Source: Bdellovibrionales bacterium (lineage in GTDB: Bacteria; Bdellovibrionota; UBA1018). Taken from it: a stretch of DNA of 64,000 nt. The stretch's first letter is position 1. Each line of letters begins with the position of its first letter. Below are positions 22,741-29,353 of the stretch, one piece after another. Made by a program: the position numbers and the translations under genes. The notes below the pieces were generated by a model that was not told the DNA's origin, made no database searches, and worked only from the letters and a program-made list of their open reading frames with translations. The stretch is taken from NCBI GenBank assembly GCA_016786465.1, contig JAEUWC010000002.1, positions 124,001 through 188,000 on the forward strand, written 5' to 3'.

Positions 22741-23312
22741 TGAAGTTTCTAACGGGTCTAACGATTCAGCTAGCGATCGGGGTCGTAGGGTTGGGTGCCT
22801 TCAGTTCAGCACACGCCGGTGTGGTCGAACTTTCGACCGGCTTTAGCTACAGTCGTTCGAACTATGCAGCTGGAAGCTATACCTGGAACCGCCGAATCGG
22901 CGGATCGGTGGCTTATCATTTTTCAGCGACATCTGGGATCGAATGGGCCTTTCAAATGATCGTTGACCGAACGGTGATCGCCAATGGCACTTTGCAAGAC
23001 ACGACCTTTAACGACCGGGTCTACAGTTTGAACTGGGTTCAGTCCTTCCTTCCTAGAGAATCGGTTTTTCAGCCTTACGTGAAGATTGGAATTGGTCAGT
23101 TGAACCGCGACGCGGAAGGGACCTATTCAGGTGGGGTTTCGCCACCAGCGCGTTTGGATGCGCTGACGGGTGTAGTAGGAATGGGTTTTCGCCTTTATCT
23201 GACCAAAACTTTCGCCATCCGCGGTGAAGCGACGACGTATCTGCAAGGAGCAGAACTGAGAACTTGGCAAGACAACCTGGGCTTTACTTTAGGAACGTCC
23301 TTCTACTTGTAA
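22740..23312 (+). CDS. Small outer-membrane beta-barrel protein
   Basis: This 190-residue protein has a signal peptide (cut after AHA) and then about eight alternating strands (VVELSTGFSYSRSNY, SYTWNRRIGGSVAYHF, VYSLNWVQSFL), ending GTSFYL. That is the design of OmpX/OmpW-sized barrels. ATG overlaps the stop of the FecR-domain gene (TAATG), so translation is coupled. No catalytic motif is seen, and the family is not named from sequence. Neighbours suggest it is the outer-membrane part of the TPR/FecR set. Confidence 0.68.
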   Translation: MKFLTGLTIQLAIGVVGLGAFSSAHAGVVELSTGFSYSRSNYAAGSYTWNRRIGGSVAYHFSATSGIEWAFQMIVDRTVIANGTLQDTTFNDRVYSLNWVQSFLPRESVFQPYVKIGIGQLNRDAEGTYSGGVSPPARLDALTGVVGMGFRLYLTKTFAIRGEATTYLQGAELRTWQDNLGFTLGTSFYL

Positions 23313-24313
23313 TGAGTTTGCTATCGGTCCTTGGGTCGGCTTGTTCGACCGCATCCTACCTTTGGCAGGCGGGGATGGGGCAGATGGAGCTTTTCAATCG
23401 TGCCCGTCCCATTTCAGAAGTGATCACCGATGAAAAAACTTCGCCAAGGATTCGGCAGCTTCTGGCCGATGTCGCTATAATGAAAAAGTTTGGCGAAAAA
23501 ATGGGGTTAAAGCCCACTAGAAACTACGAACACTACGTGCGCCTGGATCGAAAGGTCGTGGTTTATGTGGTCAGTGGAAGTCGTCCTTTGGCCTTTAAAC
23601 CCTATGAATGGAGCTTCCCAATCGTAGGAAGCTTTCCGTATTTGGGATTCTTTGATCGCGAAGATGCCTTCCGATATTCGCGCACGATCGAAGACCAGGG
23701 TTGGGACGTGGACGTTCGCGGTGCCCAGGCCTATTCGACTTTGGGTTGGTTTCGCGATCCGGTGCTTTCCAGCATGATTCCCGAAGGGGATGAAGCGTTC
23801 GGTGAACTGGCCAATGTGATTTTGCATGAATCGGTTCACGCGACCTATTATGTGAACGACCAGTCGACTTTTAACGAAAGCTTAGCCAGCTTTGTGGCCG
23901 ACGAAATGACGCCGGTTTTTTTAAAGGAAAGGTTCGGAGAATCTTCCGTCGAATACAAATCCTATCGCGAGGCGGATGAAAAATCAGAAAAGCGCGGCAA
24001 GAAGATGCACGAAGCCTATGTAAAGCTGGAAAAGCTTTACGCATCAAACGCTTCGGAAGCCGACAAGAAGACCGAAAAAGATCGAATCATCGCGGGCCTA
24101 AAGGAAGAACTGAAGTGGCCCAAAGAAAGAGCCATGAACAATGCAACGCTTTTTCAGTTCAAGACCTACGGCGGTGGCAGCGAAGCTTTTAAAAGTCTTT
24201 TCGCTCGTTGCGAAAAGAATTGGACTCAGTTCTTTTCGAAGATTTCAAAGGTGAACGAAAAGTCTTTTTCCAAGAAGCAATCCGAAGATCTCGGTTTTCT
24301 CGGAAATATATAA
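23264..24313 (+). CDS. Predicted aminopeptidase (COG4324), probable lipoprotein
   Basis: This protein matches the predicted aminopeptidase family of DUF2265/COG4324: YLWQAGMGQMELFNRARPI near the start, AYSTLGWFRDPVLSSM, and the zinc motif HESVH followed by FNESLASFVADE (third ligand Glu). The start is a choice between TTG at 23264 and ATG at 23312. TTG gives a proper basic n-region and hydrophobic core (RNVLLLVMSLLSVLGSAC) and has AAGGAG 13 bases upstream, but it overlaps the barrel gene by 49 bases. The ATG forms a TAATG junction but a very short leader. I prefer TTG. Confidence 0.78.
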   Translation: MARQPGLYFRNVLLLVMSLLSVLGSACSTASYLWQAGMGQMELFNRARPISEVITDEKTSPRIRQLLADVAIMKKFGEKMGLKPTRNYEHYVRLDRKVVVYVVSGSRPLAFKPYEWSFPIVGSFPYLGFFDREDAFRYSRTIEDQGWDVDVRGAQAYSTLGWFRDPVLSSMIPEGDEAFGELANVILHESVHATYYVNDQSTFNESLASFVADEMTPVFLKERFGESSVEYKSYREADEKSEKRGKKMHEAYVKLEKLYASNASEADKKTEKDRIIAGLKEELKWPKERAMNNATLFQFKTYGGGSEAFKSLFARCEKNWTQFFSKISKVNEKSFSKKQSEDLGFLGNI

Positions 24314-25384: not shown

Positions 25385-25663
25385 TCAATGACCGTGAATG
25401 GCGTGAATCGGACCTGGATACAGCTTGTAGCTTCCACCTGTCAGAACGGGCTGACCGTCTGGGGCACCCGCGGTGCCCTTTATTTTATATGAACCCCCGG
25501 TGACCACTCCGCCCCCGGAAGCGGCTCCGAAGCCGGGCGAAACTTCCGCATTCTTCACTTCGGATTCCCACATATAGCGAGCCCGGATCCCGCAGCCCGA
25601 AGTCATACCCATCGCCCAGGCAGCGATCACAATCCAAGCTCGATTTCGTCGGGTAAAGCTCAT
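25385..25663 (-). CDS. Small lipoprotein with two TGGSYK repeats
   Basis: This 92-residue protein is preceded by AAGGAG eight bases before its ATG. The leader ends in MTSGC (Cys24), a likely lipobox. The C-terminal half holds two copies of a short repeat, VVTGGSYKIKGTAGAP and PVLTGGSYKLYPG. These resemble the G-x-Y-x-L-x-G-T-x-G-Q-P repeat found in some secreted proteins, often near cell-surface anchors. It is divergent from the sigma/anti-sigma-like gene. TACAAT at about 25710-25715 on the minus strand is a plausible -10 element. Confidence 0.6.
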   Translation of the reverse strand: MSFTRRNRAWIVIAAWAMGMTSGCGIRARYMWESEVKNAEVSPGFGAASGGGVVTGGSYKIKGTAGAPDGQPVLTGGSYKLYPGPIHAIHGH

Positions 25664-25786: not shown

Positions 25787-25842
25787 TTGGCTTGTGTTTG
25801 CCCAGGAATGCGGCTAGCCTTTTTCCCAAGGCAGGGGGTTTC

Positions 25843-26739
25843 ATGTCCAATTCAACCGAAACACTTCGTTTCCGTTCGACGCGCCCACCAGTCATTGACT
25901 CTGCGGCTTTGAACGAACTGCTGGTCATTTCCCAATCTCTTTTTTCAGACACCGAAGAAGCAACTGAACAACTCAGCGAAGTCGTTAGCCTGATCGCTTG
26001 GCTGGACGTCGATAGCGAAGCATTAATTCGAAAATCGGCGCGTCTTTTGTTTGAACGTGCGGAAGCCCGCGGTCCGCAGGCCGTTGCAACACAAGCGAAT
26101 CAACCTTTCTTTCGCCTGCTTCCGATCGAAAGGTTTACTTTGGTCGCGGTCACATTGCTTCATTGGTCGTATTCACAAGTGCTTTCAGTTTTGGAACCGA
26201 CGCTGAAAGGCGAAGCGAACCTTCAAGAACTACTTTGGTCAACGCGGCTGCAGCTGGCGTACGCCCCTGAATCCCAGGTTTTTTTGAAAAGAAAAATGCC
26301 GCAAGGGCTGATTCATCCTTCGGGATCTTCGATTTCTGGCGCCCATTGTCCGGAATACCTGGCGCTTCGGCCCTGGCCCCAGCGATTGATCGATCGTGGC
26401 TACGTCGGTAAAGAAAAGGCCTTTCTGGAATCTCATGTTCTTCGCTGTTCAACCTGTTCGAAAGCGGTCGAAAGAACTCGGGTGTTGATCTATGCGGTTC
26501 AGTCGATCCTGGATGCGGCAGGGTTAAAATCACCAGAAGAAGTCGCCCGAAAGATTGAATCCCGTGTGGTTCGACGAATTGCGCGCGCTGAAATTTCTTT
26601 GATCGATCGATCCGGCGTAGCTGCGGTTCGCACTTTGGGTGACGCTCTTTCAATTTTTATACGCCGTCCAATTGGCCAGTTCTTTGTTTTTGCCCTTTCG
26701 GCTTGGGCGGTGATTTGGGTGGTCTATCTTTTGGGTTGA
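25843..26739 (+). CDS. ECF sigma-like domain fused to zinc anti-sigma domain and membrane anchor
   Basis: I start this at ATG 25843, which follows CAGGGGG; an upstream in-frame ATG lacks a ribosome site. In the 298 residues, about 20-75 resemble sigma region 2 (LNELLVISQSLFSDTEEATEQLSEVVSLIAW), and 92-138 resemble region 4 (LPIERFTLVAVTLLHWSYSQ, then TRLQLAY). Next is a ZAS-type zinc motif: Cys169, then His198-x3-Cys202-x2-Cys205. A membrane segment at about 278-296 ends the chain. No family with exactly this order comes to mind. The sigma half is weakly conserved and may be inactive. The end overlaps the TonB-like gene by 16 bases. Confidence 0.5.
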   Translation: MSNSTETLRFRSTRPPVIDSAALNELLVISQSLFSDTEEATEQLSEVVSLIAWLDVDSEALIRKSARLLFERAEARGPQAVATQANQPFFRLLPIERFTLVAVTLLHWSYSQVLSVLEPTLKGEANLQELLWSTRLQLAYAPESQVFLKRKMPQGLIHPSGSSISGAHCPEYLALRPWPQRLIDRGYVGKEKAFLESHVLRCSTCSKAVERTRVLIYAVQSILDAAGLKSPEEVARKIESRVVRRIARAEISLIDRSGVAAVRTLGDALSIFIRRPIGQFFVFALSAWAVIWVVYLLG

Positions 26740-27662
26740 ACTTCAAACGGGGACTTGTACTGGGCCGTCCCCAGTCCAAGCGTTGAAGTGATTCTAAAGT
26801 GAATCATCCCGTCCGATTCTTTCCAATCCTTGGGCGGGTTTTGAAAGGCTTTGGACTGCACCATCGCGTATCGCAAGCACTGATCGATTTCCGGAACCCC
26901 AGAAGACCGGGTGATCAAGACATCCACAATTCTGCCGGTGTCGGGTTCTAGAACGATTTCCGCTTCAGTTACATATTCGCCGGCAGGGGTGTTGGAAGGA
27001 ATCTTCGATTCACGGACCAGCGAATGCCAGATCGGCGATGCCACGAAAGCGACTCGGTCGTAGAAAGTCGAATAGACGGATTCTCGGGTATTCAAAATCG
27101 TTTCGGCGCCGACTTCGATATCCTTATCGGGCATCCACTGTGGAACAGCTTCTGCACCATCCAGGGCTTCCTGGGGCGGAGCAACCGCGCTCATTCCGAT
27201 GGGAACTCCAAACTTTGAAAGAGGTCCCTTGGGTTGCCGAATGTTTCCCAAAGACTTCGGGGTCTGCACGCGCGGCCGAGTCGGAAAGGCTCCCCCCCAG
27301 TTCGAGCGTGTCTGCTTTTTCACTGTTTGGTTACGCCCCGATAAAAAAGCTTCGTCCTTGGGTTCTTCCTTTGTCGCGCCTTTCATTTCCCGGTCGACCA
27401 CAAAACCGCGGTCTTTCTTTTCCCAGGCTTTGCGAATGTTTTCGATCTGATCCGAAGAAATAGGAACGACACTGACTCGGTTAGGATGCATCGAGTCCAA
27501 CCAAGGTACGGCCCGAAAGGTCAGCAGATGGATCAGCAAAGCGAGAATTGCCGCAATGATCCAGGGGCGCCAAGAACGTGACGTCTCGAAACCTTCGATT
27601 GCAATCAGGGGTGCAATCCCGGGAGCAATTGCGGAAGCTGCCGATTTTTCGTGCACGCTCAT
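26724..27662 (-). CDS. TonB C-terminal-domain protein, energy-transducer-like
   Basis: About 312 residues from ATG 27662. One membrane segment (about 31-49; PWIIAAILALLIHLLTF) is followed by a long charged and proline-bearing periplasmic region. The C-terminal TonB-like domain (about 235-300) has EYVTEAEIVLEPDTGRIVDVLITRSSG, then VPEIDQCLRYAMVQSKAFQNPP. That order matches TonB and the TonB-like parts of gliding or adventurous-motility proteins. No ExbB/ExbD genes are present. The start is uncertain: ATG at 27698 would overlap the divergent gene by 13 bases. Convergent overlap with the sigma-like gene is 16 bases. Confidence 0.68.
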   Translation of the reverse strand: MSVHEKSAASAIAPGIAPLIAIEGFETSRSWRPWIIAAILALLIHLLTFRAVPWLDSMHPNRVSVVPISSDQIENIRKAWEKKDRGFVVDREMKGATKEEPKDEAFLSGRNQTVKKQTRSNWGGAFPTRPRVQTPKSLGNIRQPKGPLSKFGVPIGMSAVAPPQEALDGAEAVPQWMPDKDIEVGAETILNTRESVYSTFYDRVAFVASPIWHSLVRESKIPSNTPAGEYVTEAEIVLEPDTGRIVDVLITRSSGVPEIDQCLRYAMVQSKAFQNPPKDWKESDGMIHFRITSTLGLGTAQYKSPFEVQPKR

Positions 27663-27685
27663 AGACTCAGATTTAGCCTGAAAGA

Positions 27686-29353
27686 ATGATTCGGGCATCC
27701 GAATTCCAATTAGATCCCGCGAAGATCCAAATATTTCTGATCCAGCCCCTGGGCGCCGCATTGCAGGGATTCCAAGCCAAGATCGACGAAGAGCCCACGT
27801 GGCAAGGGGTGCTTTTTGATTCCGTCATCGAAGCAATCCGCACGATTCGCCTGGTCGAAAGCTGCGTGATCTTGGGGCACATCAGTGATCCAAATCGTTT
27901 TGCTGAATACTTAAGTCTAGCCAAGCACCTGGCTCCGATCCTTCGATCGGGTCGGATGAAAATGCTGCTGCTTTATCCACGCGAAGCGGCGGGACGGTTG
28001 CCGATCGAACGACTTCAGATGTACGGCGTTCAAGATCTACTTCCCGAACCCGTCCAGGAACGCACCATTCTTTTCAAACTGACCCGTGCGATCAAATCGA
28101 TGCCCAAGAAACTTCACCAGCGAGACGGAACCGCCACGGTCGAGGCGTCTGGAAAGAAGGGGGCTACCCAAACCATTCATCAGCTGGACCCGATTTCCAT
28201 TCAAAGTGAAGTCTTTCTGTTGACCAGTGGCGGAGCAAAGAAAGTTCAAGACCGTTGGACGATCCGTCTGGCGGGTCCGGCGCCGCAATCAGGCAAATGG
28301 GCAGAAATCGATCCCAGGACCGAAGGGCAGAAATCCTGGCAGTGGAATCCTGCTGATCCGGCGCAGGACACTTTGCATAAAGAAGAAGGGGCGTGGACTT
28401 TTTCGGGGCAAAAGCCGCCTGAATTTTCAGGAGAACACTGGTGGTTTTCAGGGCAAAAGCCTTTATTGGAATTCGTTTACGACAAACAGGCTTACGCCAA
28501 AAAATTTGAAGTCGACGAAACCGGCGCATTGAACGTTGCTAAGGATTCACCCCAGGCGCCAGGGATTTTGGCTGAAATTCAGAAGACCTTCAAAAAGATG
28601 TATCGCAAAGCCGACACAGGTTCTGCGGTCACGCAAATCCCAGTTGAACCTTCTTTTGATGGACCTGTCGAAACTGAAAGTTTGGGTGCGGCGAGCACAC
28701 CTGCACAAGCCCAGACGGCAGCGGCAGACCATTCTTCTGCTCCTTCTTCACAGGCCACCGGAACCCTAGCGCAACCGTCTAGGGTGGACACGTCGGACCT
28801 GGGCCCGCAGGGCGATGTGGATTCCATATTGGCAGGGGCAGCGACGCAGGCGCAGTTTGCCCCGGCTGTAGAATCCGACGAACCGGTCTTGGATCTTCCG
28901 GACCGGGTTTCCGCACTTCAAATGAATTTCTTTGCGTCCGAACTGATTCGAAAGCGAACCATTCCCGGTGTTGAAATGGCGAAGCGTTTCTGCGGATTTA
29001 TTTCGCGAGGACTTTCGGATCCCGGTCGAATCGTACGAGTCGAACTTTGGGTCGAAGACCAGAAAAAGTGGGTCTGTATTTCTGCCAGTGACGGAAAACT
29101 TTCGCAGCTTCAGATTTCAGTTCGTCGTGCCAACGAACACGGCGGGTTTGAAAAAGACGTTTTGGTGTCTGGTACATTTACCGACGAAAGTATTTCTTGG
29201 ATCGGACGATTAGCGATTCAAGGCAAGGGGATCAAAAGTCTTTCGCCCGCGCACTTGAAGGATCTGGGCGAAGCTTCTTGCGGAATCATCAATTCGTTCT
29301 TGGAAGACCGCGACCCGAAGAAACGGCCTGCGCCGAATGTTACGAGGCCTTAA
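27686..29353 (+). CDS. Protein of unknown function with receiver-like N-terminal domain
   Basis: 555 residues, cytoplasmic. The first 130 residues alternate strands and helices like a response-regulator receiver (KIQIFLIQPLG at the start, VLFDSVIEAIRTI, VESCVILGHI, MKMLLLYP), but the acidic acceptor motifs are not clear. Residues about 185-285 hold a Trp-rich domain, and an Ala/Pro/Gln-rich linker covers about 310-390. The C-terminal 140 residues (MNFFASELIRKRTIPG, then FCGFISRGL) look like a compact mixed fold of GAF size. The function is not recognised. It converges on the HD-GYP gene with a 14-base overlap. Confidence 0.55.
   Translation: MIRASEFQLDPAKIQIFLIQPLGAALQGFQAKIDEEPTWQGVLFDSVIEAIRTIRLVESCVILGHISDPNRFAEYLSLAKHLAPILRSGRMKMLLLYPREAAGRLPIERLQMYGVQDLLPEPVQERTILFKLTRAIKSMPKKLHQRDGTATVEASGKKGATQTIHQLDPISIQSEVFLLTSGGAKKVQDRWTIRLAGPAPQSGKWAEIDPRTEGQKSWQWNPADPAQDTLHKEEGAWTFSGQKPPEFSGEHWWFSGQKPLLEFVYDKQAYAKKFEVDETGALNVAKDSPQAPGILAEIQKTFKKMYRKADTGSAVTQIPVEPSFDGPVETESLGAASTPAQAQTAAADHSSAPSSQATGTLAQPSRVDTSDLGPQGDVDSILAGAATQAQFAPAVESDEPVLDLPDRVSALQMNFFASELIRKRTIPGVEMAKRFCGFISRGLSDPGRIVRVELWVEDQKKWVCISASDGKLSQLQISVRRANEHGGFEKDVLVSGTFTDESISWIGRLAIQGKGIKSLSPAHLKDLGEASCGIINSFLEDRDPKKRPAPNVTRP

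Follow-up and report, generated by a model that had tools for sequence, protein, structure and literature searches.

The window, that is the whole stretch of 64,000 nucleotides analysed here, carries a gene whose product is, with high confidence, an ECF-type sigma-like protein made of regions 2 and 4 only, fused to its own zinc anti-sigma domain, of class I, and ending in an inner-membrane tail anchor. Both domains are predicted to be cytoplasmic, and the protein is homologous by sequence, fold and neighbourhood to pairs of adjacent separate genes. We propose that this fusion forms a self-inhibited latch whose sigma half does not read an ordinary -35 box, a reading to which, taken as a whole, we give a probability of about 0.55.

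Architecture and predicted fold of the fused protein

The fused gene is present as a single copy in its own genome (3.6 Mb, 97% complete, 30 contigs) and comprises the following parts.

25833-25838, + strand: possible Shine-Dalgarno sequence AGGGGG, just 5' of the ATG of the fused gene
25843..26739, + strand: fused sigma-like/zinc anti-sigma/tail-anchor protein, 298 aa, ATG start (open reading frame and conserved family)
25900..26094, + strand: region-2-like helices, residues 20-84 (20-33, 37-51 and 58-84; AlphaFold model, Foldseek to ECF sigmas, split homologues aligning over region 2)
26104..26262, + strand: region-4-like helix-turn-helix, residues 88-140, with invariant F89, R91, R97, W132 and R135 (Sigma70_r4_2 matches, hhalign to ECFs)
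26347..26610, + strand: class I anti-sigma domain, residues 169-256, with ligands C169, H198, C202 and C205 (zf-HC2 matches, weak RsiW profile match, hhalign to split anti-sigma)
within 26347..26610, + strand: helices of the anti-sigma domain, residues 178-183, 189-201, 203-225 and 232-256 (AlphaFold model)
26668..26733, + strand: C-terminal transmembrane helix, residues 276-297, with essentially nothing after it (model helix, Kyte-Doolittle, tail length 0)

A first reading made from the letters alone (hereafter the sequence-only reading) had pointed to a Cys169, His198-x3-Cys202-x2-Cys205 pattern and to a C-terminal membrane segment. The pattern is present at exactly those positions, and the segment corresponds to hydrophobic residues 280-298 (Kyte-Doolittle 2.22) and to the model helix 276-297. 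The Hx3Cx2C motif defines zinc class I anti-sigma domains (PMC7406223), and here it comes with an upstream fourth ligand, C169.

The same reading had described region-2-like and region-4-like helices and suggested searching with the sigma70_r2, sigma70_r4 and zf-HC2 profiles. Taken alone, the window protein gave no Pfam or NCBIfam match at E<=10, and phmmer against the PDB returned only noise. On this sequence alone, the sequence-only reading would thus have fallen by the refuting outcome that it named itself, a lack of profile matches to sigma regions. At the level of the family, region 4 and zf-HC2 were both recognised: when 30 members were scanned singly, zf-HC2 was found in 26 (best E 5e-6) and Sigma70_r4_2 in nine (best E 1.4e-3), the Pfam region-2 model being recognised in none of the 30. 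Genome searches with the zf-HC2 model placed several orthologues above the Pfam curated cut-off. The only match of the family profile among PDB sequences was RsiW, the zinc anti-sigma of SigW, at a weak E of 0.17, and hhalign matched the sigma half of the fused proteins to 25 ECFs from the same genomes over region 4 (probability 94.6%, E 7e-8). The proposed helices, silent in the single sequence, thus emerge with the family, through Sigma70_r4_2, hhalign and Foldseek. Since the window protein escapes Pfam and NCBIfam, such regulators are probably under-counted.

AlphaFold2, run with the family alignment, gave a model of the window protein (pLDDT 90.5, pTM 0.81) with three helices at residues 20-84, a region-4-like set at 88-139, four helices at 178-256 and a C-terminal helix at 276-297. 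Structure prediction was another check named in the sequence-only reading, and it came out in favour of the sigma assignment: searching the PDB with this full-length model by Foldseek, we found ECF sigmas as the top nine matches, with probabilities of 0.91-1.00, yet E-values above 0.1. SigW bound to RsiW ranked first, the other top matches including RpoE bound to NepR, SigJ and SigG1, with PhyR lower.

These matches bear on whether the protein could instead have nothing to do with sigma factors and be a helix-turn-helix regulator that is anchored in the membrane, bears a zinc knuckle and follows a ToxR/CadC-like logic. Weak HTH_38 and HTH_23 (Pfam) scores in a few of the 30 members and the failure of Pfam to see region 2 in any of them would fit such a regulator. 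However, Sigma70_r4_2 and zf-HC2 predominate, the structural matches are ECF sigmas in an anti-sigma-bound arrangement, region 2 included, and the split homologues described below pair a sigma-like gene with an anti-sigma gene, which makes this alternative very improbable.

A conserved family with fused and split members

By tblastn, homologues with 25-38% identity were found in 42 of 58 genomes, one in each, and in 27 of 37 genera; judged on this sequence conservation, the family is beyond chance. A profile search of 291 genomes of the phylum was positive in 43 of the 55 genomes of the window's order, nearly always with one homologue per genome, and gave only weak or partial matches beyond that order; as many of the surveyed genomes are incomplete MAGs, gene absences carry little weight in these counts. 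Public genome contigs scanned with the single protein yielded no homologue, and 34 loci were found with the family alignment. Almost every named relative is a MAG that carries the label Bdellovibrionales, Oligoflexia, Bacteriovoracaceae or Bdellovibrio, which places the window's genome in Bdellovibrionota.

In the 30-member alignment, F89, R91, R97, W132, R135, C169, P170, P177, W178, D184, C202 and C205 are invariant, and H198 (>=90%), Q196, H104, W108 and Y110 nearly so. At 25-31% identity to the rest of the alignment, the window protein belongs to its more divergent sequences. Together with the loss of DNA-contact residues described below, this divergence would be expected of a decaying, functionless remnant of a sigma/anti-sigma pair. 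Such decay is hardly credible: most genomes of the order retain the open frame, and its invariant residues, zinc ligands and neighbourhood are conserved.

In the bacterial family f15, elsewhere in the phylum, the two halves occur as adjacent same-strand genes, coding for a sigma-like protein of 130-167 aa and then a zinc anti-sigma-like protein of 124-197 aa. Compared by hhalign, these align with the fused sigma half (E 2.4e-7) and the fused anti-sigma half (E 8e-12). Among 115 f15 genomes, the sigma-like gene was detected in 93 and the anti-sigma in 62. Sixty of 63 anti-sigma matches lie directly 3' of the sigma-like match on the same strand, with a median gap of 48.5 nt between match ends, in a set that takes in a few single-frame fusions. 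The anti-sigma is therefore encoded with its sigma in both situations, as expected of the class I type: within the same chain in the window's order and beside it in f15.

The split sigma-like profile and canonical ECFs aligned across both regions 2 and 4, along 134 columns (hhalign 95.5%, E 1.6e-8), whereas unrelated neighbour profiles used as negative controls stayed below 1%. The split sigma-like model (pLDDT 90.9) matched RpoE-NepR (E 2.6e-4) and SigW-RsiW (E 4.8e-4, query-normalised TM 0.75) in Foldseek. The predicted fold of the split homologue and its alignment with ECFs independently support region 2 of the fused protein. The sigma half thus shows the ECF layout of regions 2 and 4 only in a sigma fold, region 2 being recognised through the fold and the split forms and not through Pfam.

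Both states are found close together. The genus g62 has a fused member in one genome (G243, 270 aa) and a split one in another (G085, 159+103 aa, 2 nt apart). More fused members occur in f15 (G222, G159, G200 and G179) and in f2 (G035 and G040), and f7 and f8, other families of the window's class, show the split state. On the sigma-half gene tree, parsimony gives four changes between the fused and split states, of which strongly supported branches force only one.

Bd0881 and Bd0743 of Bdellovibrio, small ECF-like sigmas from the same phylum (PMC3464611), were considered as the split sigma and set aside. Neither reportedly has an anti-sigma beside it, and the G-T-x-K-S-R residues lost in the fused and split family are still present in Bd0881 (PMC3464611). 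We also observed a second, distinct sigma-like/zinc anti-sigma gene pair with overlapping ends in the window's own genome (L187:1529-3048, on contig G000:C5) and in several genomes of the family (L184, L186 and L188), with basic residues retained in the region 4.2 helix.

The neighbourhood of the fused gene in the window is as follows.

23264..24313, + strand: putative aminopeptidase (PF10023, Pfam E 1e-79), conserved in the wider locus, with the same family beside split loci L179 and L180
24412..25185, - strand: divergent gene for a secreted lipoprotein, a candidate target conserved beside the fused gene (cluster c1, found at 9 of 21 loci; hhalign to the split-locus lipoprotein)
25385-25663, - strand: small ORF of 92 aa that begins like a secretion signal and lies between the lipoprotein and fused genes, absent from the other loci examined
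26724..27761, - strand: convergent TonB_2-like membrane protein gene, conserved neighbour (Pfam TonB_2 E 1e-3, below cut-off; hhalign to the split-locus TonB-like protein)

The TonB_2-like gene shares 16 bp at its 3' end with the fused gene. Of six split loci that we read completely, all have the divergent lipoprotein gene and five the convergent TonB-like gene. The lipoproteins of fused and split loci are homologous (hhalign 96.6%, E 6e-10), as are the TonB-like proteins (98.3%, E 1.6e-14). This shared gene order indicates that the fused and split forms occupy the same locus and are not convergent look-alikes. At the level of sequence comparison, this evidence, namely the two halves encoded as adjacent separate genes at the same locus, is decisive for the identity of the fusion. 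The one-chain architecture of ECF-sigma-like part, zinc anti-sigma and membrane anchor put forward by the sequence-only reading was thus right, and is strengthened by these split genes.

The neighbours are not universal, as in family f5 a cytochrome-c-like gene and gltX are the divergent genes in place of the lipoprotein gene. The f5 loci (L005, L012, L014, L016, L017, L021, L025 and others) also carry a strongly conserved TATGACAACAATCTTAGCACTTACTGTCAAG stretch upstream of the fused gene. Beside split f15 loci, we noticed a conserved membrane protein of about 450-480 aa with a G-[LIV]-x-T-C-F-x-R-[LIV] motif, encoded at the following positions.

L175:395-1750: motif-bearing membrane protein gene, split f15 locus
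L176:374-1825: motif-bearing membrane protein gene, split f15 locus
L180:4907-6337: motif-bearing membrane protein gene, split f15 locus
L273:3507-4868: motif-bearing membrane protein gene, split f15 locus

State of the sigma half

The residues with which E. coli RpoE reads the -35 element include R171, S172, R173, R176 and R178 (PMC3464611). Taking V170 as position +0, we compared 25 ordinary ECFs from the same genomes with 30 fused and 41 split proteins. First, a K or R at +1 (RpoE R171) is found in 96% of the ECFs, in 0/30 fused and in 0/41 split proteins. Second, at +6 (R176) the proportions are 100%, 23% and 17%, respectively, so that neither the fused nor the split forms keep the pair of basic region 4.2 residues at the R171 and R176 positions. 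Third, +8 (R178) is basic in 48% of the ECFs, 100% of the fused and 93% of the split proteins, and +3 (R173) does not discriminate (20%, 17% and 7%). The net charge of the helix is 2.72 in ECFs, 0.87 in fused and 1.05 in split proteins (Mann-Whitney p 4e-7 and 3e-10, which are optimistic since the rows are related).

The loss of these residues in both states suggests that it is older than the fusion or fission events. It leans towards the idea, raised in the sequence-only reading, of a sigma half that has ceased to be an ordinary sigma. We infer that it no longer reads an ordinary -35 box and is probably not a conventional promoter-reading sigma. The invariant R135 and the conserved H104 and Y110 could provide other DNA contacts. 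In our alignments, the acidic position of region 2.2 is mostly retained, so that the sigma half may still bind RNA polymerase through region 2.

By eye, no shared ECF-type -35/-10 pair was found in the upstream regions of the family. A 19-bp palindrome, CTGTCAA-N5-TTGACAG, recurs in several relatives (L004, L007, L013, L018, L022 and L029) in the stretch that separates the fused gene from the divergent lipoprotein gene. In genome G007 it is also found 5' of three other secreted or lipoprotein genes (L258, L265 and L269; sites in L255-L272), and it is possibly an operator to which a dimeric regulator binds. The window lacks it, the score there being at chance (7/14). As the palindrome was picked after viewing the sequences and occurs elsewhere in those genomes, we kept it out of the evidence.

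These observations weigh on the possibility that the protein is a working, membrane-tethered ECF sigma with an unusual promoter, held by its fused zinc anti-sigma until intramembrane proteolysis and then activating its own locus. The intact sigma fold, the retained region 2.2 acidic position and the conserved divergent lipoprotein gene sharing the intergenic region would all suit such a factor; its parts are moreover ordered as in ECF48, ECF52 and ECF53, and sigma is joined to anti-sigma as in IutY (PMC8999054, PMC5826349). Nevertheless, the basic residue at the R171 position is gone in every fused and split member tested, there is no periplasmic domain for receiving a signal, and no common ECF-type promoter lies upstream, the recurring element being the palindrome that the window lacks. 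We therefore regard a working tethered sigma as doubtful.

PhyR offers another comparison, as its sigma-like domains are among the structural matches of both the full-length fused and the split sigma-like models. PhyR resembles the fused family in that its sigma fold serves to bind an anti-sigma; it differs in having a receiver domain and in working with NepR, an anti-sigma of another class, where the partner in the fused family is a class I zinc domain of the same protein. Neither Pfam nor the AlphaFold model showed a receiver domain in the window protein. A PhyR-like mimic would never meet RNA polymerase; its sigma-like half would occupy the anti-sigma domain, in cis here and in trans in the split species, and its displacement would free the anti-sigma to inhibit a real ECF. 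The lost DNA-contact residues and the presence of at least one ordinary ECF in the window's own genome are compatible with this scheme. We nonetheless consider it improbable: a fused anti-sigma stays permanently beside its partner and would be inefficient at titrating others, the protein has neither a response-regulator domain nor any other switch domain, and the co-inherited matching pairs (60/63 adjacent) suggest a dedicated pair.

A possible membrane-side latch and its relation to known systems

In all 30 fused members, only 0-9 residues follow the hydrophobic segment and basic residues precede it, and the segment reaches a hydrophobicity of 1.6 or more in only 17 of the 30. By the positive-inside rule, these basic residues give both the sigma and the anti-sigma domain a cytoplasmic location and leave no sensor outside. 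A signal must then arrive by the zinc site, the membrane or a partner, and any signal for cutting would need another protein, as there is no extracytoplasmic domain.

Class I anti-sigma domains have four helices, of which a three-helix bundle binds region 4 and the fourth reaches region 2. The anti-sigma part of the fused model has four helices of suitable length. Working at the membrane, the anti-sigma domain would clamp regions 2 and 4 within the same chain, just as RsiW does with SigW, and the clamped chain would constitute the self-inhibited latch that we favour. The latch might open by a zinc or redox change, or by proteolysis triggered via another envelope protein. The freed sigma half would then most likely bind RNA polymerase or a partner without reading an ordinary -35 box; its likeliest partners or targets would be the two conserved neighbours, lipoprotein (divergent) and TonB-like (convergent).

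Neither zinc nor the anchor is found throughout the split forms. Only 24 of the 41 split anti-sigma proteins (about 60%) end in a transmembrane segment. In several f15 genera, and in f7 and f8, the anti-sigma partner has no zinc ligands; several of these partners keep a YLDGxLS-type start and one matches zf-HC2 at E 2e-3. In several f15 genera, zinc-less and TM-less partners of 99-105 aa, with a Y-[LF]-D-G-x-L start followed by THPEF, stand beside the same sigma-like gene.

L273:2138-2455: zinc-less, TM-less anti-sigma partner
L277:1942-2259: zinc-less, TM-less anti-sigma partner
L287:2602-2913: zinc-less, TM-less anti-sigma partner
L276:1967-2266: zinc-less, TM-less anti-sigma partner

Zinc sensing and membrane anchoring are thus not universal in the system. 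As class I anti-sigma domains are known to include mixed groups, with and without zinc (PMC7406223), the metal may have a structural role.

SigW-RsiW, with other ECF/class I anti-sigma pairs, resembles the fused family by the sigma fold, which is closest to SigW bound to RsiW, by the RsiW profile match and by the Hx3Cx2C motif; it differs in that its proteins are separate and that SigW reads promoters. The sequence-only reading had held that sigma factors and anti-sigmas are normally separate proteins. Most known sigma/anti-sigma regulation does involve separate proteins, the fused cases being few and mostly actinobacterial.

Fusions of a sigma, a zinc finger and a TM helix have already been described in ECF48, ECF52 and ECF53, and IutY (ECF243) is a sigma fused to a membrane-bound anti-sigma and proteolysed (PMC8999054), so that a sigma/anti-sigma fusion is not in itself unprecedented. 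For the ECF52 protein SCO4117 of Streptomyces coelicolor, activation by proteolysis has been proposed (PMC8999054, PMC5826349). Like the fused family, ECF48, ECF52 and ECF53 combine in one chain an ECF sigma domain, a zinc finger (likely a ZAS) and one or two TM helices. However, they are actinobacterial with extensions of up to about 400 residues, whereas the fused family belongs to Bdellovibrionota and measures about 250-300 aa. ECF52 bears proline-rich and carbohydrate-binding extracytoplasmic parts, in contrast to the 0-9 residues past the TM helix here. The fused family follows the ECF52-type order of parts, with a working sigma domain doubtful: its sigma half is strongly divergent and without the -35-reading residues, and its own phylum includes split homologues. 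In Pseudomonas putida, IutY likewise joins, by description, a sigma to a membrane-bound anti-sigma, but it has a cell-surface-signalling anti-sigma for siderophore uptake and a working sigma released by Prc and RseP. Our literature search found no description of the fused family; a numbered ECF group may exist, the main ECF classification lying outside that search.

What is new here is therefore the phylum, the small size, the lack of an outside domain, the divergence of the sigma half with loss of its -35 residues, and the split homologues at the same locus. As both states occur at homologous loci within one phylum, and even within one genus, the consequences of joining sigma and inhibitor in one chain are directly testable. 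Should promoter reading be lost from the sigma half, this would be an example, apart from the PhyR system, of a sigma factor converted to a switch that works through protein interaction. More broadly, and with somewhat less than even confidence, the fused and split forms may together make up one conserved pseudo-sigma/anti-sigma module of Bdellovibrionota, which one order carries as a fusion and others as separate genes, in some cases without zinc. Such a module would keep the fold and the partnership without -35 reading and act as a membrane-side switch tied to an envelope locus of lipoprotein and TonB-like genes. If this is true, a sigma/anti-sigma pair would here serve a purpose beyond ordinary promoter selection.
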